From Bacillota bacterium (GTDB taxonomy: Bacteria; Bacillota; Sulfobacillia; JABLXB01): DNA of 64,000 nucleotides. The notes under the pieces are model-generated. The model was given only the letters and a program-made list of their open reading frames with translations. It did not search any database and had not been told where the DNA came from. The stretch lies in contig JABLXB010000008.1 of NCBI GenBank assembly GCA_013178305.1, positions 124,001 to 188,000 of the forward strand, in the 5' to 3' direction. How positions within the stretch are numbered: the stretch's first letter is position 1; each line of letters opens with the position of its first letter. The position numbers and the translations under genes were made by a program. Positions 8,963-20,745 of this stretch are shown one piece after another.

Positions 8963-9226
8963 TCAGCCGCCCATAACGGGGGCGAGAAGGACAATCTCAT
9001 CGCCGTCGTGCAGGATGTCCGCGGGTCCGAGGGTCCTGCCTGACCGCGAAACCCAGACGGTGTGCCCGTCGCCGAGCCCGGCCGACATCCCGCGGAGGTC
9101 TGGATAGGCGACCTCCAGGTTGATCAGGAGATCCTTGACGGTTGTTCCTTCACCGAACGTCAGGATTTCCTGTGTTTTTCCCGCCAGATCCTGATAGGGT
9201 GGGAAGAAACGGACTCTCACGTTCAC
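8963..9226 (-). CDS. MoaD/ThiS-family ubiquitin-fold sulfur carrier
   Basis: An 87-residue beta-grasp protein ending in Met-Gly-Gly, the C-terminal diglycine that is adenylated and thiocarboxylated in MoaD. It opens with VNVRVRFFPPYQDLAGK and has a late DEIVLLAPVMGG. The GTG at 9226 is chosen because a GGAGG (complement of 9235-9239) sits eight bases upstream. No other pterin gene is nearby. A tungsten-type AOR is encoded 8 kb away and would need such a carrier for its pterin cofactor, so that link is plausible but inferred. Confidence 0.8.
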   Translation of the reverse strand: MNVRVRFFPPYQDLAGKTQEILTFGEGTTVKDLLINLEVAYPDLRGMSAGLGDGHTVWVSRSGRTLGPADILHDGDEIVLLAPVMGG

Positions 9227-9261
9227 CAAGACACCCTCCGCACTGCTCTGTACATCAAATA

Positions 9262-9292
9262 GCCCCCGGCCGGATAAGCACCGGCCGGGGGC
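9262..9292 (-). terminator. GC-rich hairpin after the M28-like gene
   Basis: A perfect 12-bp stem, GCCCCCGGCCGG at 9262-9273 pairing with 9281-9292, closes a 7-base loop. Read on the minus strand it is followed by only a short TATTT, so termination may be partial. It lies between the M28-like gene and the moaD-like gene. Confidence 0.55.
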
Positions 9293-9312
9293 GCAGGAAT
9301 GCGACACTCCCG

Positions 9313-11025
9313 CTACACTCCGGCCCGCTCAAGCGCCTGGACGGCTTCGGTTAAATACAGTATAAATCGGTTTCGCCTGCGCAGGTAGATGGGGTACAGC
9401 AGGTTGAACTCATCACCTTCGGCAGAGGCCAGTCTCTCGGCGCCGTCGAACATCGGGAATGCGGGGATTGCCCCAAAGAAGTCCGGGTCCGTGCGTTCGT
9501 TCTCCTTGAACGCGCAAGGTACCAGCGCTAGCGAGAGTTCACGCAAGACCCTGTTTGCCTTTGGCGGCTCTATCTCGCCTCTTCCGAGCACCTCGTAGAA
9601 CCTTTCAGTCGTCCGCGCAACCTCCGACAGCCTCGCCCTGGCCGGCTCCAGGTCGAGCCGCTGGCCGACGGATCTCGACAGCAGGTCGAGCTGCTCCGAG
9701 ATGTAGCGGCAGAGCGCGCGGAAATCGTAAGGAAGGTAGCGACACGAAAGCAGCCTGTATACCGTCGCCATGTATATCCTGGTGTCGCGGAGCAGGTTGT
9801 CCGGATCGATTTTGTCAATCGTGTCGAACTCCGTGTGCCACCACCAGCCCAGGCCGCCGCTGAGTTTCCCCCCGGTATGGAAACCCACGCCCTCGCTGCC
9901 GGGGTCCCTTGGTTGCTCCGAGAACGTGGCGAACGTACTTGTCAGTCCAATGCCGTAGAACGACTGGTCACCGAAACGGCCGATCCGCTTGCCGGCGAGA
10001 TTGCGCCCCGTGACTTTCTTGAGGGCCGCCGCCGCAAGGCCGAACGATTGCGGCATGATGGGGATCTCCTCAAGGACGGAGGCCCCCCTGCCCCCCGTGG
10101 AGTCGGCGTTCACGTGGCCAAGGCACCTGTCGAGGAGCTCCGTCCAGTAGTGATCCGCGTACCAGGCCGAGCCGGCGAACCTGCCATGGGAGTGGCCCGA
10201 CCAGAAGGCCAGCCTCAACCCGCGCCGCAGGCTACTCCTGTGCTCGGCGGCCAGCCTGGCGACCTCCATGACAGTCGCATTCGCGGCGCCGTTATCCATC
10301 GCTCCGTAATGCCACGAGTCAATGTGGCTGCTGAAGAGCAGGAATTCCCCTTCCTCGCGCCCATCGATGTCCGCTATGAGCAGCGGGAGCTGTCTCCAGC
10401 CGGTGTCCACCGCCGTGTGAATTCGTACCTGGACCGGGCCGCGCGCAATGGCGTTTTTCAAGTAATCGCCACCCTGACACGTCACCGTGATGCTGGGGGT
10501 GACCGGAAGCATGCCGAGGGTGTCCCTTGTAGGTGGTCCCCACAGTGGGGAGACGGCCGACTCATGCAGATAATCGTCGCTGACGAATATTTCCCCGATG
10601 GCTCCCCCGGCCTCCATCTCCAGGCATGCCTTGGACGAGGCCATGCCGTCCACGAGGACGATCTTCCCCCGTACGCAGTCTCCCTTCTTCGGATAGATCA
10701 GCTCTCCCGACAGTCCCGATTTCGCGGTGGATTTCGCAAACGAGTGGGTGATGCACTTAAACTGAGCCTGAGGATCGGATGGAATCGTTAACGAAGCGCT
10801 GACCGGGAGACTGATGAATGCGGGATGGCGCAGCAGTTCCGTTCGGTAGCCGAACGACTTGAGGATCCCGTTCACGTAGTTCATGGCCTCGGCTTCGCCC
10901 GTGGCTCCGGACAGGCGCACCCACGTAGCGATCTTCCCGGTCCACTCCATGAGATTATCTCGTGATACTTCCGACAGCAACACGTCTTCGAGCACCTGAT
11001 CATAATCGAGATGATGGTCAGCCAT
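9313..11025 (-). CDS. M28-like peptidase with altered active site
   Basis: A 570-residue protein with a PA-like insert (about residues 85-205) and a zinc-peptidase M28 fold. The first ligands are present: SSHIDSWHYGAMDNGAAN (His234, Asp244). HVNADSTGG gives Asp308, and WWWHTEFDTIDKID a late His. The segment that in M28 enzymes reads SGEE, with the catalytic Glu and a metal-binding Glu, here reads WSGHSHGRFAGS (His278-Ser-His280). It may bind metal differently or not be a classical peptidase. No signal peptide is evident. ATG 11025 follows AGGAGGG. It lies downstream of the sigma-54 activator on the same strand, after a 177-base gap. Confidence 0.75.
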   Translation of the reverse strand: MADHHLDYDQVLEDVLLSEVSRDNLMEWTGKIATWVRLSGATGEAEAMNYVNGILKSFGYRTELLRHPAFISLPVSASLTIPSDPQAQFKCITHSFAKSTAKSGLSGELIYPKKGDCVRGKIVLVDGMASSKACLEMEAGGAIGEIFVSDDYLHESAVSPLWGPPTRDTLGMLPVTPSITVTCQGGDYLKNAIARGPVQVRIHTAVDTGWRQLPLLIADIDGREEGEFLLFSSHIDSWHYGAMDNGAANATVMEVARLAAEHRSSLRRGLRLAFWSGHSHGRFAGSAWYADHYWTELLDRCLGHVNADSTGGRGASVLEEIPIMPQSFGLAAAALKKVTGRNLAGKRIGRFGDQSFYGIGLTSTFATFSEQPRDPGSEGVGFHTGGKLSGGLGWWWHTEFDTIDKIDPDNLLRDTRIYMATVYRLLSCRYLPYDFRALCRYISEQLDLLSRSVGQRLDLEPARARLSEVARTTERFYEVLGRGEIEPPKANRVLRELSLALVPCAFKENERTDPDFFGAIPAFPMFDGAERLASAEGDEFNLLYPIYLRRRNRFILYLTEAVQALERAGV

Positions 11026-11202
11026 TCGCCGTGCACCCTCCTAGCGTTCTAATGCCGTCCCACCACCTCGTCACGCACTGGCGTGAGTGCGGACACCAGA
11101 TTGTGGTGCCCTGTCACTGGGCAGAGGGATCGTCAACCAACGGGGATCTCGAAAGCAAGCGCCATGCCAGCGCTCGCCGGCCGGTGGGGTGAGGGATGGT
11201 CG

Positions 11203-12624
11203 TCAGTCTGCGAGGGAATATGCACGTGAACGGCCCTGACCGGAGGCCCTCAGGACCCTCTGGTCGACGAGCTGGGACAGATCTCTAAATGCAGTGGTCC
11301 GGTCGACATTAGTCAGCTTACAGTACTCACGATTCGTTATCATACGATGTTCTCTCAGGTAGGAGAGCAACAGGGACCTGCGCGACAGGAACCCGGCAGC
11401 GGAGATTCTGGCCACGATCCGCGCCGGCAGGTCGATCTTGCGGATCATTCCCGCCCGGCACTGGTAGGCGGAGCTCAGCACGACGCTACGCAGTTCCCGC
11501 ACGTTTCCCGGCCAGGCGTAAGACTGCAGGACCGCCAGGGCGCACGGGCTCACTGTCACGGTTCTGCCCGCCTTCTCTCGAAATTCGCTGGTAAAATGGG
11601 CGATCAGTGAGGGGATATCCTCCTTGCGGTCCCTGAGTGGCGGCACCTGGAGTTCCGCCACGCTGAGCCTGTAGAACAGATCGGACCTGAACTTCCCCTG
11701 GCGGCACAGATCCTCGATTGACCTGTTTGTTGCAGCGATTAGGCGAATGTTCAGGCGTCGCTCGGTGACCGAGCCGACTCGCCTGAGTACGCCGTCCTCT
11801 ATCACCCTGAGCAGCCTCGGCTGGAACTCCAGCGGCATATCCCCGATTTCGTCGAGGAACAACGTCCCTCCGTCCGCGGACTCGATTAGTCCGGCCTTTC
11901 CTCCACGCCTGGAGCCGGTAAACGAGCCGTCTTCGTAGCCGAAGAGTTCGCTGTCAATAAGCCCCTCGGGAAAGGCCGAACAGTTCACCGCCACAAACGC
12001 GCCGCCGGACCGGGGGCTGATCTCGTGAATGGCCCTGGCGAGGAGGTCCTTACCGGTTCCCGTCTCTCCAGTAATAAGTACCGGAAGGTCGGTTGTGGCG
12101 ATGACGCTGGCCTTTGCCTTCAGTTGCGCCATCAGGCGGCTCTCTCCAACTATGCTGTCGAAGCGATGGAGCGATTCGTCGGGCTCGAGATCGGAGGGCT
12201 CGGTGTACCCTACGCGGTCGATTACGCTGATATCCTTCGCCATCATGATGGTTCCCAAGAGGGTATCGTCCCGCATTACGGGCCGGATCTCCACCATGTA
12301 TTGCCTGCCGTCCTGTCTCTGAGAGAGGCCGAAGACCGCCTTCTTTGTGCGCAGAACCTCGCAGATCTTCGACGGCGGGGAGAAATTCCGGACGTTACAG
12401 CCGAGGAGTTCAGCTTTCGTAATGCCCCTCATTTTGATGAATGCTTCATTGGCCATTATGATGTTTCCCTCGCCGTCCGTGACCATGACGGGGTCGTTCA
12501 GCAGGTCAAAGAATGCCTTAGCCCATTCGGCGTCGCTGAGATGTGTGGATATGAAATCATCGATCTCTTCAACCCACAGGTACTGCCCGATGACCCTTCG
12601 GCCGGGGATTACCATGTCCGACAC
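11203..12624 (-). CDS. Sigma-54-dependent transcriptional activator (PAS–AAA+–winged helix)
   Basis: A 473-residue protein. A PAS domain lies at about 37-133 (FDLLNDPVMVTDGEGNIIMA) and the AAA+ module at 155-390, with Walker A GETGTGK (186-192) and Walker B GGTLFLDEIGD. The sigma-54 contact loop reads GSFTGS (233-238) rather than GAFTGA. The C-terminal 60 residues do not look like the usual Fis helix-turn-helix. They resemble a winged helix (TNREYCKLTNVDRTTAFRDL). GTG 12624 has GAGGT eight bases upstream. It diverges from the operon at 12900, whose upstream region holds a -24/-12 element, so it probably activates that operon on sensing a substrate through PAS. Confidence 0.9.
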   Translation of the reverse strand: MSDMVIPGRRVIGQYLWVEEIDDFISTHLSDAEWAKAFFDLLNDPVMVTDGEGNIIMANEAFIKMRGITKAELLGCNVRNFSPPSKICEVLRTKKAVFGLSQRQDGRQYMVEIRPVMRDDTLLGTIMMAKDISVIDRVGYTEPSDLEPDESLHRFDSIVGESRLMAQLKAKASVIATTDLPVLITGETGTGKDLLARAIHEISPRSGGAFVAVNCSAFPEGLIDSELFGYEDGSFTGSRRGGKAGLIESADGGTLFLDEIGDMPLEFQPRLLRVIEDGVLRRVGSVTERRLNIRLIAATNRSIEDLCRQGKFRSDLFYRLSVAELQVPPLRDRKEDIPSLIAHFTSEFREKAGRTVTVSPCALAVLQSYAWPGNVRELRSVVLSSAYQCRAGMIRKIDLPARIVARISAAGFLSRRSLLLSYLREHRMITNREYCKLTNVDRTTAFRDLSQLVDQRVLRASGQGRSRAYSLAD

Positions 12625-12687
12625 CCCACGTTACCTCGTTTAGCCTGGGAAGGGAGTTCGCTGCCGGTTGATGAACACCTCCAGAAT

Positions 12688-12735
12688 AAGCGGCTCGACC
12701 AGGGCAGCGGCGAACACGAAGCGGTTTTGAAGCGG
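12688..12735 (+). repeat. Three AAGCGG direct repeats, possible activator sites
   Basis: AAGCGG occurs at 12688-12693, 12719-12724 and 12730-12735. The last two are 11 bases apart, one helical turn. They lie 41-104 bases upstream of the -24/-12 element, where sigma-54 activators usually bind. The binding role is inferred. Confidence 0.35.
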
Positions 12736-12775
12736 ATAGGAAAGGGAACCCGGGTGGCTCGCCGGCCTCCACAGG

Positions 12776-12792
12776 TGGGTATGGGATTTGCA
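12776..12792 (+). promoter_or_regulatory. Putative sigma-54 (-24/-12) promoter of the catabolic operon
   Basis: TGGGTATGGGATTTGCA has the required GG (12778-12779), ten bases, then GC (12790-12791), and ends TTGCA. It matches about 10 of 13 defined positions of the consensus. It lies between the divergent sigma-54 activator and the 12900 gene, leaving a leader of about 97 bases. Confidence 0.6.
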
Positions 12793-12899
12793 ATGTCATC
12801 CGCTGCGGGATGCCGGCATGAGCGCCCAGGGCTGGATGCTGGGCGTCCGCGCCCAGGACAATTCCGCCACGGCGCCCTGACGAAATGGAGGGATGAGAA

Positions 12900-13073
12900 T
12901 TGTTCGGAATGCCTTGGCCAGTCGTATTCACTTTCATTCTGACTGCTCTCGGTTTCATCTTCTCATGTTTCTGGTCGGTGAATTTCGAGAGCATAACGGA
13001 CCGCTGGCTGTGGAAGGACATCAAGGCAACTGAGGATCAGGTGAACCTCGGAAAGGAGGCCGGCAAGCAATGA
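12900..13073 (+). CDS. Small one-helix membrane protein, symporter-associated
   Basis: A 57-residue ORF: a short N-terminus, one hydrophobic segment (about residues 7-26, VVFTFILTALGFIFSCF), then a charged tail. TTG 12900 has GGAGGG (12887-12892) seven bases upstream. An internal ATG at 12909 is the alternative. The stop overlaps the ATG of the symporter gene (ATGA), so the two are translationally coupled. Small membrane proteins preceding SSS transporters are known, for example YhdT before PanF, but this one is shorter and I cannot assign it to a family. It may be an accessory subunit of the transporter. Confidence 0.65.
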   Translation: MFGMPWPVVFTFILTALGFIFSCFWSVNFESITDRWLWKDIKATEDQVNLGKEAGKQ

Positions 13074-14623
13074 AACCCGAATTTGGCGGCCCTACCGCAA
13101 TAATCACGTTCATCGTGTACACGGCGGGCGTTCTCGGGCTGGGTTACTATGCATCAAGGAGAATCAAATCATCCGCCGACTTCTGGATCGGGGGGAGAAG
13201 CCTCGGGCCCTGGCTGACGGCGATGACACTGTACGCGACTACTCTCAGCGGCGCAGGGTATTTCGGTGCTCCCAGCGCCGGGTTCACCCAGGGCAACGCA
13301 ATCGCCTGGCTCAACCTCGGCGCGTTTGCGGGCATGTTCATTTTCAACACCGTCGTCGGGCCGAAGCTGTGGCAGGTCGGAAAGATACACGGTCTGGTCA
13401 CCGTCGAGGACTACCTCAACAAGCGGTACGGAGACGACGTCATTCCGACCCTGGCGGCGGTAGGCGGGAGCGTCTTCATGATGCTGTCGCTTTACGCGCA
13501 ATTCAAGGCGACCGGGATCGTGATGTCCACCATCCTGGGATTGGACTACCTTGCGGCGTTGTTCGTATCACTCGGTGTGTTCACGATCTACACCGCCTTC
13601 GGCGGGGTGCTGGCAGTCGTCTACACGGACTTCCTGCAGGGCGTGATCATGCTTTTCGGTACGGTCTTCCTGATCGTCGTTCCGATACTCAAGGCGGGTG
13701 GGCTGACCGCCATGAATACGAAGCTGGCGACCATCGCGCCGAAGCTCGTCACGTGGCACGGGGCTTTTACGGCCGGATTCGCGCTTTCCTGGATAATCCA
13801 CTTCGTGTTCAGCTTCAACAGCTCGCCGTACCAGGTGCAGCGCGGTTTCATGGCGAAGGGCTTCAGGACCTTCCGGACGATGTTGCCGATCATCCTGGTG
13901 TCGTTCTTCCTTACTTCGACGATGAAATACTCCGGGATGGCGGCCCAGGTCATGATCAAGGAAGGGACCATGGCGAAGCCCCCGAACGCCGACTGGCTGT
14001 TCCCCTACCTGGTGTACGCCATCTTCCCATCGGGTGTGGCGATTTTCTTCCTGATCGCCTGCATGGCCGCCATCATGTCCACCGGCGACTCGCTGCTGAT
14101 GTACGTGAGCACCGCGCTGACAAGGAACGTCTACCAGAAGTTCATGAACCCCAAGGCGCCTGAATCGAGACTAATGAAGGTCAGCCAGTGGACTGTGGTC
14201 GCCCTTTCCACAATCCTGTTCCTCCTCGCGGTTTTGGAGCGGATCGCGGGCCTGCAGATCCCGATCATCTACATGCTGGTGCAGGTCGGCACGGGCGGTC
14301 TGACAACCCTCTTTGCGCCCGGGCTGCTCTACGGGCTCTTCTGGAAGCGCACGACCAGGTCCGGCGTGCTTGCCGGCATGTTGGCAGGCTCAGCCGCGCT
14401 CGTCGCCGCGTTCGTGTGCCGGAATGGGTACGCGGGGAAGGCCGTTCAGGAAGCCTATTACAGTTCCATCTGGTCGCTGGGAGGGTTCCACGAGGCGGCG
14501 CTTGGCGCCACGGTCGCGCTCGTGGTCACTCCGGTCATCAGCCTGCTCACGCGGGCGCCTGAAAGCGACCTCGTCGAGAAATGGTTCCCGGGCAAGGGCG
14601 TGCGCGCCGGCAAGACGGCCTGA
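13070..14623 (+). CDS. Sodium:solute symporter (SSS family)
   Basis: A 517-residue polytopic membrane protein. The N-terminus GLGYYASRRIKSSADFWIGG is the SSS opening after the first helix. TLSGAGYFGAPSAGF and the GGVLAVVYTDFLQGVIML segment correspond to conserved transmembrane stretches of the PanF/proline-type transporters. It imports an organic solute with Na+. The hydrolases encoded downstream suggest an amide or amino-acid-like substrate. It overlaps the small membrane ORF by four bases and lies 41 bases before the M24-like gene, in an operon read from the -24/-12 site. Confidence 0.9.
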   Translation: MKPEFGGPTAIITFIVYTAGVLGLGYYASRRIKSSADFWIGGRSLGPWLTAMTLYATTLSGAGYFGAPSAGFTQGNAIAWLNLGAFAGMFIFNTVVGPKLWQVGKIHGLVTVEDYLNKRYGDDVIPTLAAVGGSVFMMLSLYAQFKATGIVMSTILGLDYLAALFVSLGVFTIYTAFGGVLAVVYTDFLQGVIMLFGTVFLIVVPILKAGGLTAMNTKLATIAPKLVTWHGAFTAGFALSWIIHFVFSFNSSPYQVQRGFMAKGFRTFRTMLPIILVSFFLTSTMKYSGMAAQVMIKEGTMAKPPNADWLFPYLVYAIFPSGVAIFFLIACMAAIMSTGDSLLMYVSTALTRNVYQKFMNPKAPESRLMKVSQWTVVALSTILFLLAVLERIAGLQIPIIYMLVQVGTGGLTTLFAPGLLYGLFWKRTTRSGVLAGMLAGSAALVAAFVCRNGYAGKAVQEAYYSSIWSLGGFHEAALGATVALVVTPVISLLTRAPESDLVEKWFPGKGVRAGKTA

Positions 14624-14664
14624 GCCTTGCAGGATCAGCAATTCGTGGAAGGTGGGGATTGTCT

Positions 14665-15858
14665 TTGGAGGCGGAAACGGATAGGGACCTGTATCCAAGG
14701 TGTTCGGATGCCGAGTTCGAGCGGCGCCACAACAAGCTCCGCAAGTCCATGGATGAGAGGGGGCTTGACTGCCTCCTGATCTACGGCGGGTACAAAGAGA
14801 TGTACCAGGCCAACGCCTTTTGGGTCACGAACTACGCGGATTGCTTCCAATCGTGGACCGTGTTCCCGCTGCAGGGGGAACCGGCGCTCTACAACACCCT
14901 GTACCCGCACCTTCTCTATGCCAAGAAGGTGTCCGTGATCAGGACGACGGAATGGGGCGGCCCGAGCATCGCCGAAACCGTGGTCAAGCGTGTGAAGGAA
15001 CTGGGACTGGGAGAGGCGCGCATCGGGCTGGTAGGCATCGATAGCCGCCGGACGGTCAACTTCCCGCAAAGCCACTACGAGGTGTTTTGCCGCGAGCTGC
15101 CTGGGGCGAAATTCGAGGATGCCACGACGCTGGTGGAGAAGATCCGCTCGGTGAAGAGCGCGGAAGAGATCTCGTTCGTGGAGAAAGGCGCGAAGATTAC
15201 GGACAGCTGTATGAAGGCCCTGGTGGACGCCGTCCGCCCGGGCGTCACGGACTTCGAGCTCTACGCGGTCATCAATGAGACGGCGTATCGCCTGGGAGGG
15301 GCCCCGAATTTCACGCTGTTCGCGTCGACCTCGATGCTTGATCCCAACATGCCGTACCCGTGGCCGCAGCCGTCGAAACGGACTGTCAAGAAGCAGGACC
15401 TCATCAGCAACGAGCTGTGCGCCAACTATGCTGGTTACTCCGGCCAGCTCATCCGGCCGATCGCGCTTGGCAAACCCCCGAAGGAATTCCTCGAGATCTA
15501 CAAGATCGCGGAGGACCTGTACCACGCGATCGCCGGGGCGATCAAGCCGGGCAATACGGAGCAGGACGTGATCAACGCGGTGAAGCCGATCGCGGCCCGC
15601 GGTGGATTCTACCAGCAGGCCCCCCTGGTGCACGGTTGGGACAACAAGCCCGATCGCCCCTGGATCGGTCTCCCGGGCGCGGCCCACTTCCCGATAACGC
15701 CCCACGTTTTTGAAGAGGGGCAGCTGATCATGATCGAGCCGAACCCGTGCAGCCTGGATCTGAAAAAGGGCATATTCCTCGGGAGCCTGCACGTCGTCAC
15801 CGGCACAGGGTGTCGTTGCCTGCAGGAGTTTCCGCTCGAGTTCACAATTAAGGAGTAG
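14665..15858 (+). CDS. M24 (creatinase/Xaa-Pro peptidase-like) hydrolase with degenerate metal site
   Basis: A 397-residue protein with the creatinase N-domain (about 1-140) and the pita-bread M24 domain (about 150-395). KSAEEISFVEKGAKITD is the typical domain junction. In metal-dependent members an Asp...Asp pair lies around GY-sD-tR. Here the region reads SNELCANYAGYSGQLIRP, so both Asp are replaced. The final Glu-containing stretch is changed as well (IFLGSLHVV). Creatinase itself is a metal-free member, so a metal-independent C-N hydrolase is the better guess than a peptidase. The start is TTG 14665 or 14659; GGTGGGG spacing favours the former. Confidence 0.75.
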   Translation: MEAETDRDLYPRCSDAEFERRHNKLRKSMDERGLDCLLIYGGYKEMYQANAFWVTNYADCFQSWTVFPLQGEPALYNTLYPHLLYAKKVSVIRTTEWGGPSIAETVVKRVKELGLGEARIGLVGIDSRRTVNFPQSHYEVFCRELPGAKFEDATTLVEKIRSVKSAEEISFVEKGAKITDSCMKALVDAVRPGVTDFELYAVINETAYRLGGAPNFTLFASTSMLDPNMPYPWPQPSKRTVKKQDLISNELCANYAGYSGQLIRPIALGKPPKEFLEIYKIAEDLYHAIAGAIKPGNTEQDVINAVKPIAARGGFYQQAPLVHGWDNKPDRPWIGLPGAAHFPITPHVFEEGQLIMIEPNPCSLDLKKGIFLGSLHVVTGTGCRCLQEFPLEFTIKE

Positions 15859-15870
15859 GTGGGCATCATT

Positions 15871-15903
15871 CTTCAGGGGCGCGCGTGAGTCGCGCCCCTG
15901 AAG
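15871..15903 (+). repeat. Inverted repeat between the M24-like and amidohydrolase genes
   Basis: A perfect 13-bp stem, CTTCAGGGGCGCG at 15871-15883 pairing with 15891-15903, closes a 7-base loop. There is no T-run after it on either strand, so it may be a processing or mRNA-stability structure rather than a terminator. Confidence 0.6.
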
Positions 15904-15970
15904 AGGATAGCGGACGACGGGGCCGTCTATTCTCAGATGTGTTTGCTACTATGCCCGGATGGAGGCTCGC

Positions 15971-16957
15971 ATGATCGTAGATGTTCACGCCCATTACGTC
16001 CCAATTCGAAACGGCGGCGGTATAGGCACGCGGTCCGCGCCGCGGCTCGTAGAAGTACTACCGTGCGCCGGCGGCAAGGTGAGTGTCGTGGTGAACGGGA
16101 AGGCTGTGGCGCAGGTGGAGCCCGGCCTTAATGACCTTGGGAAACAGCTGGAGGACATGGACAGGGAAGGCATCACCTATCGCCTGCTGTCAATCGCGCC
16201 GCCTATCATGCTTTACGAACTCCCCCCCGAGCAAGCCGTTGAGTGGGCTGCCGCTGTGAACGAGCAGCTTGCAGCGGACATCGACGGGAACCGCCGCCGC
16301 TTCGGAGGCCTGGCGACGCTCCCCCTGCAGGATCCGCAGGCCGCCGCCGGCGAACTCGAGCTGTCGATGACGGTCCGCGGATTTGCAGGGGCTCAGATTG
16401 CCACCAACGTGAACGGCGTGGAAATGGACGACCCGCGCCTCGAGCCGTTTTGGATGATAGCGGAGTCGCTTGGCGCGTTCATCCTGATGCACCCGCATTA
16501 TGTGGCGGGGAAAAACCGTATGGAGGGGTATCACCTTCGCAACGTGGTGGGCAACCCACTGGACACTACTCTAGCCGCGGCGAGGCTGGTGTTTGGAGGG
16601 GTGATGGAGCGCCACCCCGGCCTCAGGATCTGCCTGTCCCACGCCGGTGGATATGCAGCTTTGGCGGCGGGACGCATGAACCATGCGGCCCGCGTGCGGC
16701 CCGAGATCAAGGGCCTCAAGAAACCGCCATCGGAGTACCTGAAGCTGTTTTACTATGACACGATCGCGCACGACGCAGAAGCGCTGGCGTTCGTGGGCCG
16801 TAAGATGGGACCGGAGCGGGTGCTGGCGGGCACGGACTACCCGTTTGATATGGGCGACCCGTCCCCAGCGCGGATCGTCGGTGAGGCCGGGTTTGACCCG
16901 GCAACCGCTGGTCTCATCCTCGGCGGAACGGCTCGGCGCTTGCTGTCGATACCGTAG
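15971..16957 (+). CDS. Amidohydrolase-2 family metal-dependent hydrolase (ACMSD-like)
   Basis: A 328-residue TIM-barrel enzyme. MIVDVHAHYVP gives the N-terminal His-x-His metal pair. Further ligands are the His in ILMHPHYVAG, LSHAGGYAAL and the Asp in AGTDYPFDMGD. These fit the amidohydrolase-2 clan, which includes decarboxylases such as ACMSD and lactone or amide hydrolases. The reaction cannot be decided from sequence. ATG 15971 follows GGAGG at 15961-15965. An ATG at 15959 would precede that site. It is the third enzyme-level gene in the sigma-54-linked operon. Confidence 0.85.
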   Translation: MIVDVHAHYVPIRNGGGIGTRSAPRLVEVLPCAGGKVSVVVNGKAVAQVEPGLNDLGKQLEDMDREGITYRLLSIAPPIMLYELPPEQAVEWAAAVNEQLAADIDGNRRRFGGLATLPLQDPQAAAGELELSMTVRGFAGAQIATNVNGVEMDDPRLEPFWMIAESLGAFILMHPHYVAGKNRMEGYHLRNVVGNPLDTTLAAARLVFGGVMERHPGLRICLSHAGGYAALAAGRMNHAARVRPEIKGLKKPPSEYLKLFYYDTIAHDAEALAFVGRKMGPERVLAGTDYPFDMGDPSPARIVGEAGFDPATAGLILGGTARRLLSIP

Positions 16958-16984
16958 GATAGTCCGGCTTAGGAGGCAGTGCCT

Positions 16985-18838
16985 TTGAAGGACTACGGGC
17001 GTTTGTGGGAAGTTGACTTGACTACAGGGAAGGTTACGAAGGATCAGATCTCTCAGGATGTGATCCGCCTCTACCTTGGCGGTCGCGGCCTCGGCGCGCG
17101 GCTGTTACTCGATTACCTCAAGCCAGGCACGGATCCACTGGCTCCCGAAAACGTGCTGATGTTCATCTCGGGACCACTGACAGGCACTCCGGCCCCTGGA
17201 GCTGGGAAGTACCTCGTCGTGACGAAATCCCCCGCGACAGGGGCCTGGTTGGAAAGCTACGCCAGCGGCCGCCTGGCGCTCGAACTGCGCTACTCCGGCT
17301 GCGACGTATTGATGATAAGGGGAAGGGCGGCACAGCCCTCGTACCTCTGGGTGGGCGACGGGGCGGCCGAAGTTCGCGACGCTCGCGATCTCTGGGGGTC
17401 TGATGCGTTTCGCACCGAAGAGATTCTCGCGCGGCGTTTCGGGGATCCCGCGCCCGGAATTGCGTGCATCGGTCCGGCCGGCGAGAACCTCATCCGGTTC
17501 GCTGGCATCAACAGCGACTTTTTCCGGCAGGCGGGGCGCGGGGGCGCCGGGGCGGTAATGGGCTCCAAGAACCTTAAGGCAGTCGTCGCGAGGGGGACGA
17601 AGGGCCTGTCCTGCGCGGATAGCGAGGGCGTGCTGTCCCTCCTGTCGGCGCACATCGACCGCGTTCGGGGCAACCCGGTGGCTGTCCGCCGCAGGGGATA
17701 CGGCACCTCCCTGACCATGAACGCCACCAACGAATACGGCATGCTCCCTACCCTCAATTACCAGCGTGGGACTGCTCCTGAAGCCGGGGGCAGAATCAAC
17801 GCCGAGGGCGTAGGCAAGGCGGCCTACCACACTCGGGGGTGCACTGCATGCATCACGCCCTGCGGGGTAATGACCCACACGCAAGGGCCGCTGGGGGACC
17901 AGTACCTCGAGGGTCCGGAGTACGAGACACTATGCCTGCTAGGCAGCAACTTGGGTGTCTTCTCACTCCCTTACGTGTGTGCGTGTAACCTGCTGTGCGA
18001 TCAACTTGGGCTGGACACGATTTCAACAGGCAACGTGATCGGCTTCGCCATGGAGTGTTTCGAGCGTGGTCTGATCGGTACGGGCGACACGGGCGGACGG
18101 GATCTCAGGTTCGGTCGCTCCGATCTCGTGCCGGGGCTCATCAGGGACATCGCCTACATGAGAGGGTTCGGGCGGGATCTCTCGCTGGGGACCAGGAGCC
18201 TCGCGGCACAAGTAGGTCAGGGCTCCGAGAGGTGGGCGATTCACGTGAAGGGGCTGGAATTCTCGGCCTACGACCCGCGGGCGGCCTTCGGCGGAGGGTT
18301 GATATACGCAGTGGCTCCTCGCGGCGCCTGCCACCGCAGGAGCTCACCGGTGCACGTGGTGCGCAGGACCAGTGTTCTCTACGAACCTGACGGGCAGGCT
18401 CGAGTGGTGAAGGACCTCTTCGACGAACGGTCCATCCAGCATACTGTGCTGGTATGCGACTTCATCGGCAGGGGCGCCCCCGTGTCGGCGGATGAATACG
18501 GGGATTACCTGGGGTTTACGATTGGCGAGCATTTCACCGGCGATGAGCTTCAAGAGATTGCGGACAGGATAGAGACCACCATACGCCTGTTCAACAACAG
18601 GGAGGGACTGTCACGATCGGACGACACGCTTCCCCCGCGCATCCTCGAGGAGCCGCTACCGGACGGCCCGGCGCGGGGGAAGATCATCGGCCGCGCCAAT
18701 CTCGATAGAATGCTGGATGAGTACTACCAGCTTCGCGGCTGGGACCCCGCGGGCGTGCCGACGAAGGAAACCGTGTCAAGGCTACAGATCAATCCGCAGA
18801 CCTGGCTCTCGCCACAACGACAGGCGGTTTCGGGGTAA
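16985..18838 (+). CDS. Aldehyde ferredoxin oxidoreductase (tungstopterin enzyme)
   Basis: A 617-residue AOR-family protein that oxidises aldehydes to acids with ferredoxin as acceptor. Near the N-terminus GGRGLGARLLLDYL and RGGAGAVMGSKNLKA are pterin-binding segments. The cluster ligands are the Cys-x2-Cys-x3-Cys of GCTACITPCG (about residues 286-293) and a later Cys in VLVCDF. NLLCDQLGLDTISTGN is typical. The start is TTG 16985, eight bases after TAGGAGG; GTG 16979 is too close to it. It lies 27 bases after the amidohydrolase. It probably removes an aldehyde intermediate of the pathway. The aldehyde is unknown. Confidence 0.92.
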   Translation: MKDYGRLWEVDLTTGKVTKDQISQDVIRLYLGGRGLGARLLLDYLKPGTDPLAPENVLMFISGPLTGTPAPGAGKYLVVTKSPATGAWLESYASGRLALELRYSGCDVLMIRGRAAQPSYLWVGDGAAEVRDARDLWGSDAFRTEEILARRFGDPAPGIACIGPAGENLIRFAGINSDFFRQAGRGGAGAVMGSKNLKAVVARGTKGLSCADSEGVLSLLSAHIDRVRGNPVAVRRRGYGTSLTMNATNEYGMLPTLNYQRGTAPEAGGRINAEGVGKAAYHTRGCTACITPCGVMTHTQGPLGDQYLEGPEYETLCLLGSNLGVFSLPYVCACNLLCDQLGLDTISTGNVIGFAMECFERGLIGTGDTGGRDLRFGRSDLVPGLIRDIAYMRGFGRDLSLGTRSLAAQVGQGSERWAIHVKGLEFSAYDPRAAFGGGLIYAVAPRGACHRRSSPVHVVRRTSVLYEPDGQARVVKDLFDERSIQHTVLVCDFIGRGAPVSADEYGDYLGFTIGEHFTGDELQEIADRIETTIRLFNNREGLSRSDDTLPPRILEEPLPDGPARGKIIGRANLDRMLDEYYQLRGWDPAGVPTKETVSRLQINPQTWLSPQRQAVSG

Positions 18839-18854
18839 TTGGGAGGTCACCACA

Positions 18855-19538
18855 ATGAGCGATATCCCTCTTGGCAAGATAGAACCAGGACGTACGGCCC
18901 TCTTGCTCATCGATTTCCAGCGCCGCCACCTGGATGCCGAAATAGCGTACCACCCTGTGAGCAAAGAAGAAGCGGAAAGGATCGTCCGGAACGCCAGGCG
19001 CTTGCTCGAGTTTGCCCGCACAAGCGGTATTCCGGTGATATTTGTGGAGACGTTTTCGAGAAGGGCCTCGAAATGGGGGATCGTAGACGCGCGGAACGCG
19101 TACTGGGAAGCCCAGGCAAACCGCGTGGTTCCAGGCAGCAACTTCGTTCGTCGTACGGGCCGCAATGTGGAAGGTTCCGTTTACGCAGAAATCCTTCCGG
19201 ACCTGGCTCCGGGACCGGATGACATCAGGGTGCTGAAGAAGCGCTACAGCGCTTTCTACGGCTCGGACCTCGAACTGGTGCTGCGCGGCCTCGGGGTTGA
19301 CACCCTTATCGTAGCGGGTGTGAACACAAACAACTGTGTGCTTTCCACCTGCTTTGACGCATTCAATCGCGACTACAGGATCATCGTGATCGAGGACTGC
19401 TGTGGCAGCATGAACGGCGCCGACATGCACGAGTTCGCGATCAAGGAGATAAAGGCTGCCCTGGGGTGGGTCCGAAGTTCGGAAGAGATGGCGACCTTGT
19501 TACGCAGTGAACACGAGCAGGGAGCCGCACGGCCCTGA
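18855..19538 (+). CDS. Isochorismatase-family cysteine hydrolase (N-carbamoylsarcosine amidase-like)
   Basis: A 227-residue alpha/beta hydrolase of the isochorismatase/nicotinamidase superfamily. The catalytic Asp is in ALLLIDFQ, the Lys in VLKKRYSAFYGSDLE, and the nucleophile Cys in VNTNNCVLST. The flanking layout (GSDLELVLRGLGVDTLIVAG) resembles carbamoyl-sarcosine and ureidoacrylate amidases more than true isochorismatases. It would split an amide, releasing ammonia. ATG 18855 has GGGAGGT eight bases upstream. It lies 16 bases after AOR and 16 bases before the M20 gene. Confidence 0.88.
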   Translation: MSDIPLGKIEPGRTALLLIDFQRRHLDAEIAYHPVSKEEAERIVRNARRLLEFARTSGIPVIFVETFSRRASKWGIVDARNAYWEAQANRVVPGSNFVRRTGRNVEGSVYAEILPDLAPGPDDIRVLKKRYSAFYGSDLELVLRGLGVDTLIVAGVNTNNCVLSTCFDAFNRDYRIIVIEDCCGSMNGADMHEFAIKEIKAALGWVRSSEEMATLLRSEHEQGAARP

Positions 19539-19554
19539 GGAGGGAACCCGGATC

Positions 19555-20745
19555 TTGGACGCTCTCGCCGCGCTGCTTCAACGGCGCGAAACTCAGATCA
19601 GAGAAGATTGGGCTATGCTTCATTCGATTCCGGAGGCGGGTTTCGAGGAGAAACAGACGTCCGCATTCCTTGCGGCGAGGTTGGAGCGGGCCGGGTTCGA
19701 AGTTCAAAGGGGGCTTGCGGGGACCGGCGTGGTGGGGTATTTGCGGGGGCACGAACCCGGACCCGTAGTGGGTCTGCGTGCGGACATGGATGCGCTCCGG
19801 CACGAATTGGATGGCCGCGTGGAAGCCCGCCACTCGTGCGGTCACGACGCGAACTGCACCATGGTGCTTGCGGCGGCCGAAGCGCTGGCCGCGTGTAAGG
19901 CCGTCCGGCGGGGTAGGCTGGTGATCGTGTTTCAACCGGCGGAGGAAATGCTGTCCGGCGCCAGAGCCATGATCGAGACCGGAGCACTGGATGGATTGGA
20001 CTACCTGATAGGCGTGCACCTCCGGCCTAAAGAAGAACTGGGATACGGCACCGCGACACCCTCCGTCAGGCACGGGGCGTCCGGAATCATGCTGGCAACG
20101 ATTTCGGGGACACCCGCGCACGGGGCCAGACCGCATCAGGGGGTGAACGCGGTTGAAGCCGGCGCGCTTGCGGTACTTAGCGTAAGTCAGGTGAGGCTGG
20201 ACCCCAGGGTCTCCCATTCAGTGAAGGCCACCATGATAAGGGGCGGGGGTGTATCTCTCAATGTCATTCCCGACCGCGTGGAAATGGCATTCGACCTGCG
20301 AGCCCAGACCAACCAGATCATGACGGGTCTGCGAGAAAAGGTCACCAGGGCCATCAACCTGGCGGCGGGCGCGAACGGAGCGAAAGCCGAGGTCACCTGG
20401 AAGGGAGGGGTCCCTGCCGCTCAAGACGATCGGAATGTGGTGGAGGTCGCCACCGAAGTAATAAAGGATGTGCTGGGGCGGGACGGACTTCGGGCGCCGC
20501 TGCTTACTCCGGGTGGGGAGGACTTTCACGAATACCCGCTTGCCATGAAGGGCCTCAAGACAACCATTGTTGGACTAGGGGCCGACGTCACCCCCGGCCT
20601 CCATCATCCCGAGATGGTGTTCAATCGGGATATCCTGCTTCTGGGGGCCAGGATCCTGGCTGGCATTGCGTGCAGGATCTTTAACCAGGAGCCGGCGACC
20701 CGTGAGTGTTACGAGGCGGAAAGCGCGGGGGACACTGACTCTTGA
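19555..20745 (+). CDS. M20-family amidohydrolase (hippurate/N-acyl-amino-acid hydrolase-like)
   Basis: A 396-residue metal-dependent amidase of the M20D group. VVGLRADMDALRHE, EARHSCGHDANCTMVLAAAEAL (with the ligand Cys and His-Asp), FQPAEEMLSGA and TPGGEDFHEYP follow the family order. It probably deacylates an N-acyl amino acid or related amide. TTG 19555 has GAGGAGGG upstream. A longer GTG start at 19507 would overlap the isochorismatase-like gene by 32 bases. It is the last gene of the operon; a new sigma-A promoter follows at 20769. Confidence 0.88.
   Translation: MDALAALLQRRETQIREDWAMLHSIPEAGFEEKQTSAFLAARLERAGFEVQRGLAGTGVVGYLRGHEPGPVVGLRADMDALRHELDGRVEARHSCGHDANCTMVLAAAEALAACKAVRRGRLVIVFQPAEEMLSGARAMIETGALDGLDYLIGVHLRPKEELGYGTATPSVRHGASGIMLATISGTPAHGARPHQGVNAVEAGALAVLSVSQVRLDPRVSHSVKATMIRGGGVSLNVIPDRVEMAFDLRAQTNQIMTGLREKVTRAINLAAGANGAKAEVTWKGGVPAAQDDRNVVEVATEVIKDVLGRDGLRAPLLTPGGEDFHEYPLAMKGLKTTIVGLGADVTPGLHHPEMVFNRDILLLGARILAGIACRIFNQEPATRECYEAESAGDTDS

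Follow-up and report, generated by a model that had tools for sequence, protein, structure and literature searches.

The locus around the activator gene at 11203–12624 (minus strand) is best read as an ordinary case of one-component sigma-54 control, a reading to which we give a probability of about three in four: the activator would fire a promoter at 11169–11154, with a weaker second candidate at 12777–12792. The clearest result is that the best predicted sigma-54 promoter of the window (the whole 64,000-nucleotide stretch analysed) is the site at 11169–11154 on the minus strand, on the other side of the activator gene from the region emphasised in the initial annotation, where it had been overlooked. 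The main predicted control point moves from 12776 to 11154, and the likeliest target genes change. The two sites and their scores, the rpoN gene, the protein domains and the genome's habit of placing promoters behind activator genes were obtained by computation.

Results and Discussion

The presence of a sigma-54 activator divergent from the symporter operon, proposed earlier, was confirmed: the product of 11203–12624 matches PF00158 with 216.7 bits (cut-off 20.2) and comprises PAS, AAA+ and lid domains. The C-terminal DNA-binding domain of such activators is commonly, but not obligatorily, of the Fis type (HTH_8). HTH_8 was found in 26 of the 30 activator loci examined in this genome and gave no match in 11203–12624, the C-terminus of which shows weak winged-helix matches below the cut-off. 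The predicted structure of its last 91 residues, of too low confidence to support a fold search (mean pLDDT 58.8), contains helices compatible with a helix-turn-helix. A winged-helix activator is not without precedent, since such matches are reported for another sigma-54 activator group in the part of that paper drawn on here (PMC4641369). The L1-loop motif GSFTGS occurs at this locus alone among the 30; 21 loci carry GAFTGA, two GAYTGA and three GSFTGA, and in the remaining three the motif was not found by the pattern used. Its final residue differs from that of the other activators in the genome, a point against the main reading. GSFTGA and GAYTGS are listed as variants expected to keep activity, and the combination GSFTGS is absent from that list in the portion of the source used (PMC4641369).

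Absence of rpoN had been named as one of two findings that would speak against sigma-54 control. The gene lies on this contig, some 19 kb ahead of the window (PF04552, 203.5 bits), as an intact frame of 468 amino acids and the one strong match in the genome to the RpoN DNA-binding domain, so that this objection falls away. Two further stretches, G000:C1:206263–206412 (+) and G000:C1:229462–229617 (−), match the last third of this domain with 20.4 and 25.2 bits (cut-off 22.8); they lie N-terminal of the AAA+ domain in very long sigma-54-activator frames of 1056 and 1008 amino acids.

The genome contains 43 matches to the sigma-54 interaction domain; 30 of these loci were retrieved and scanned for sites that keep GG and GC and have no more than two mismatches. 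In 20 of the 30 loci (19 others and the one described here) such a site lies no further than 280 bp behind the activator stop codon and on the activator's strand, and five of the 29 others have a divergent site in front of the activator (L069, L078, L088, L089 and L090). At L089 sites stand on both sides of the activator, and with crude frame calling two-sided sites occur in about one in seven comparable loci. The site at 11169–11154 follows the main layout of this genome, the promoter behind the activator, and 12777–12792 would follow the minor one. For practical purposes, promoters in this genome should first be searched for behind the activator gene. At G000:C6:7670–8871 the activator gene looks split: two AAA+ pieces occupy different frames, and one of them is interrupted by a stop. 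An HTH_8 match follows, and behind it lies a sigma-54 site that fits the consensus perfectly.

Two scoring matrices were built from these sites, one from the 19 downstream sites of the other activator loci (leave-one-out training scores 14.6 to 21.4 bits) and one from 24 sites, i.e. the 19 together with the five divergent ones from other activator flanks (lowest training score 13.8); both are partly circular, because the training sites were selected for their likeness to the consensus. The site TGGCATGGCGCTTGCT at 11169–11154 achieves the highest score of the window with either matrix (21.6 and 22.3 bits, respectively) and ranks first among 127,962 window positions with the 19-site matrix. In the genome search for TGGCAC-N5-TTGCW, in which up to two mismatches were allowed, it deviates from the consensus at one position, and none of 2000 shuffles of the surrounding region matched its score. 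The −24 GG (11168–11167) and −12 GC (11156–11155) are in phase, the consensus fit lies inside the genome's own range and a gene follows downstream. The site begins 34 bp behind the activator stop codon and ends about 130 bp upstream of the M28 peptidase gene start; transcription is predicted to begin at about 11143.

The first gene behind this putative promoter (9313–11025, minus) belongs to the M28 peptidase family (PF04389), and its start is accompanied by a good ribosome-binding site. It is followed by a MoaD-like gene (8963–9307, minus; start codon uncertain) that matches TIGR01687 with 42.8 bits, under the cut-off of 49.5. The predicted M28 leader contains a perfect palindrome, TCACGC-ACTG-GCGTGA (11071–11086), the sole perfect copy of TCACGC-N4-GCGTGA within the window, where the total count is at chance level; the divergent region contains no copy, even with up to three mismatches.

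Most likely, the PAS-AAA+ activator and sigma-54 RNA polymerase would act together on the promoter at 11169–11154 behind the activator's own gene, and the M28 peptidase and MoaD-like genes would be expressed once this promoter is switched on. Both the use of either site and the service of this activator at them we infer from sequence, and the PAS domain may sense a substrate of the pathway. The biology is ordinary: a standard one-component system of sigma-54 control.

On the other side of the activator, the initial annotation had placed a sigma-54 promoter in front of the symporter operon. A possible weak site is indeed present there, but the clearest one lies elsewhere, at 11169–11154. The reported letters TGGGTATGGGATTTGCA at 12776–12792 and their GG-N10-GC spacing were recovered; the element proper is GGGTATGGGATTTGCA at 12777–12792 (plus strand, predicted start about 12803), because GG at 12778–12779 and GC at 12790–12791 leave ten bases between them. 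Read from T12776, the element scores −15 bits. Phase and location are as for a sigma-54 promoter, and the score is below the training range of both matrices: 11.4 bits with the 19-site matrix, well under the lowest training score of 14.6, and 13.6 bits with the 24-site matrix, slightly under the weakest training site at 13.8.

That 12777–12792 is a chance match, with 11169–11154 as the sole local target and the symporter operon on another type of promoter missed by simple scans, falls just short of an even bet. Besides its low scores, the three mismatches of GGGTATGGGATTTGCA to TGGCAC-N5-TTGCW speak for this explanation, and so does the location of the equal or better matches. With the 24-site matrix there are seven of these in the genome sample and window: the two window sites, one immediately upstream of an open frame, and four inside likely genes. 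In the portion of a Clostridiales survey used here, 65% of the activators have one target operon (PMC6615313). A sigma-A promoter could also have been missed. The earlier observation that no good one precedes the operon holds by simple consensus scan, but it is hardly discriminating: when 60 divergent upstream regions were sampled from the genome, only six reached nine of twelve sigma-A matches, and since the other 54 lie below this value, its absence says little and was rejected as an argument for sigma-54. The activator's own side of the divergent region reaches six of twelve at best.

Against a chance match stand the right placement and direction of the site and its rarity. With the 24-site matrix just seven of 927,244 positions score as high, so that about 0.2% of single-strand stretches of 275 bp would contain such a match by chance, and shuffles of the 275-bp divergent region equal its score in 1.2% of cases (19-site matrix). 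With the latter matrix it ranks second among the 127,962 window positions, and 16 of 799,280 positions in a 400-kb genome sample attain its score. Control flanks of activator loci, on the wrong strand or side, reach it in none of 60 cases with the 24-site matrix and in one of 60 with the 19-site matrix (L078, 12.3). Taken together, the sequence comparisons place the element moderately above chance. That it works as a second sigma-54 promoter has about even odds, a judgement based on its scores and on the share of roughly one in seven comparable loci that are two-sided.

Should 12777–12792 be functional, the activator would control promoters on both flanks of its own gene, and this one would serve the operon from the symporter to the M20 peptidase-like gene. 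We hold only tentatively, at rather under even odds, the fuller proposal that a winged-helix activator drives a strong and a much weaker sigma-54 promoter on opposite flanks of its gene and that both gene sets would thereby be co-induced to unequal levels. Such a locus would be a small case of one activator serving both neighbours.

The likely operon (13070–20745, plus) encodes, in this order, a sodium:solute symporter, an M24 peptidase-like protein, an amidohydrolase, an aldehyde ferredoxin oxidoreductase, an isochorismatase-like and an M20 peptidase-like protein. Presumably, judging from what is generally known of such cofactors, the MoaD-like protein could serve the oxidoreductase; the two sides of the activator would then be tied together. 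A small open reading frame (12900–13073, plus), with TTG 12900 or ATG 12909 as its start codon, shares four bases with the beginning of the symporter gene; it is membrane-protein-like and gave no match in domain and family searches. Behind 12803 no structured leader or riboswitch was found, and the fold is no better than that of shuffles (z −0.86). The sole Rfam match in 10800–13200, to a CRISPR-repeat model, reached 19.6 of 39 bits, far under the threshold, and was rejected as a riboswitch. The predicted symporter-operon leader contains the arms CGCCCAG / CTGGGCG / CGCCCAG (12821–12857) with two possible pairings. The intergenic region was also considered as a repeated element and discarded, as elsewhere in the genome it has just short weak matches.

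The remaining explanation, that of the initial annotation, treats the divergent region as the main control, where the activator would bind AAGCGG repeats in helical phase and from which it would drive the whole 12.9–20.7 kb set. We consider it improbable. The 12777–12792 site is present with correct spacing, and by arithmetic the repeats lie about 73–115 bp before the predicted start, near the 100–250 bp before the promoter given in the part of the survey used (PMC6615313). Three copies of AAGCGG were indeed found (12688, 12719 and 12730; 12688–12735, plus), the last two 11 bp apart, but as activator sites they are not above chance. Of 2549 window stretches of 275 bp, 1083 contain at least one hexamer in three copies, and 229 contain an exact hexamer pair with 11-bp spacing; a triple AAGCGG within 60 bp has one instance in the window. 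AAGCGG was rejected as an activator site on these chance frequencies. Around the much stronger promoter (10900–11500) the motif is absent. Furthermore, the better promoter lies elsewhere, at 11169–11154.

No common activator site was found, because the divergent control region and the control region of the strong promoter share no motif or word beyond what shuffles give, which counts against the main reading. The word GGCCGGCGAG occurs in both, near both −24 elements and in opposite orientation, and was dismissed as not above shuffles. Sites of the form TGT-N10-12-ACA, which are given for fifteen Clostridiales activator groups in the portion of the survey used (PMC6615313), occur in neither control region.

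An orthologous locus suitable for a conservation check was not found among 154 genomes of the class or, for the symporter, also 398 of the phylum; at E 1e-70 the symporter has no match outside its own genome in either set (own genome included in the 154). The M24 gene has one outside match (42% identical). For the activator, one outside match in the 154 class genomes passed the threshold, 43% identical over residues 33–403 and without the C-terminus, and a wider contig scan gave mostly general activators, of which the first in rank is 38% identical. M28 relatives are present in 20 of the 154 class genomes, own included. From 19 fetched outside M28 loci, 16 were scored in the correct register, and one has a good sigma-54 site upstream (L109 in G085, TTGGTACAATTCTTGCTA, 16.7 bits); L103, which sits at the edge of its contig, and the misregistered L104 and L110 do not count among the 16. 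Since this is one of 16 relatives, sigma-54 control is not general for this M28 peptidase family.

Comparison with Known Systems

The locus resembles the PAS-type one-component activators of Clostridiales such as PrdR, which, in the sections of the survey used, combine PAS and AAA+ domains, adjoin their target operon and share with the locus the promoter consensus TTGGCATNNNNNTTGCT (PMC6615313). PrdR is also the best NCBIfam match of the activator, with 354 bits, far under the PrdR cut-off of 795 bits. In contrast to PrdR-type systems, the activator lacks a Fis-type match and carries the motif GSFTGS, and its control regions are without TGT-N10-12-ACA. A second likeness, compared by description in the part of the source used, is to the DVU0151 type of Desulfovibrionales, a sigma-54 activator group for which winged-helix matches are described in place of an annotated DNA-binding domain (PMC4641369). 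Its gene adjoins its promoter, as here, but DVU0151 is described there as divergent from that promoter, unlike the activator at 11203–12624 with its strong candidate site behind the gene (PMC4641369).
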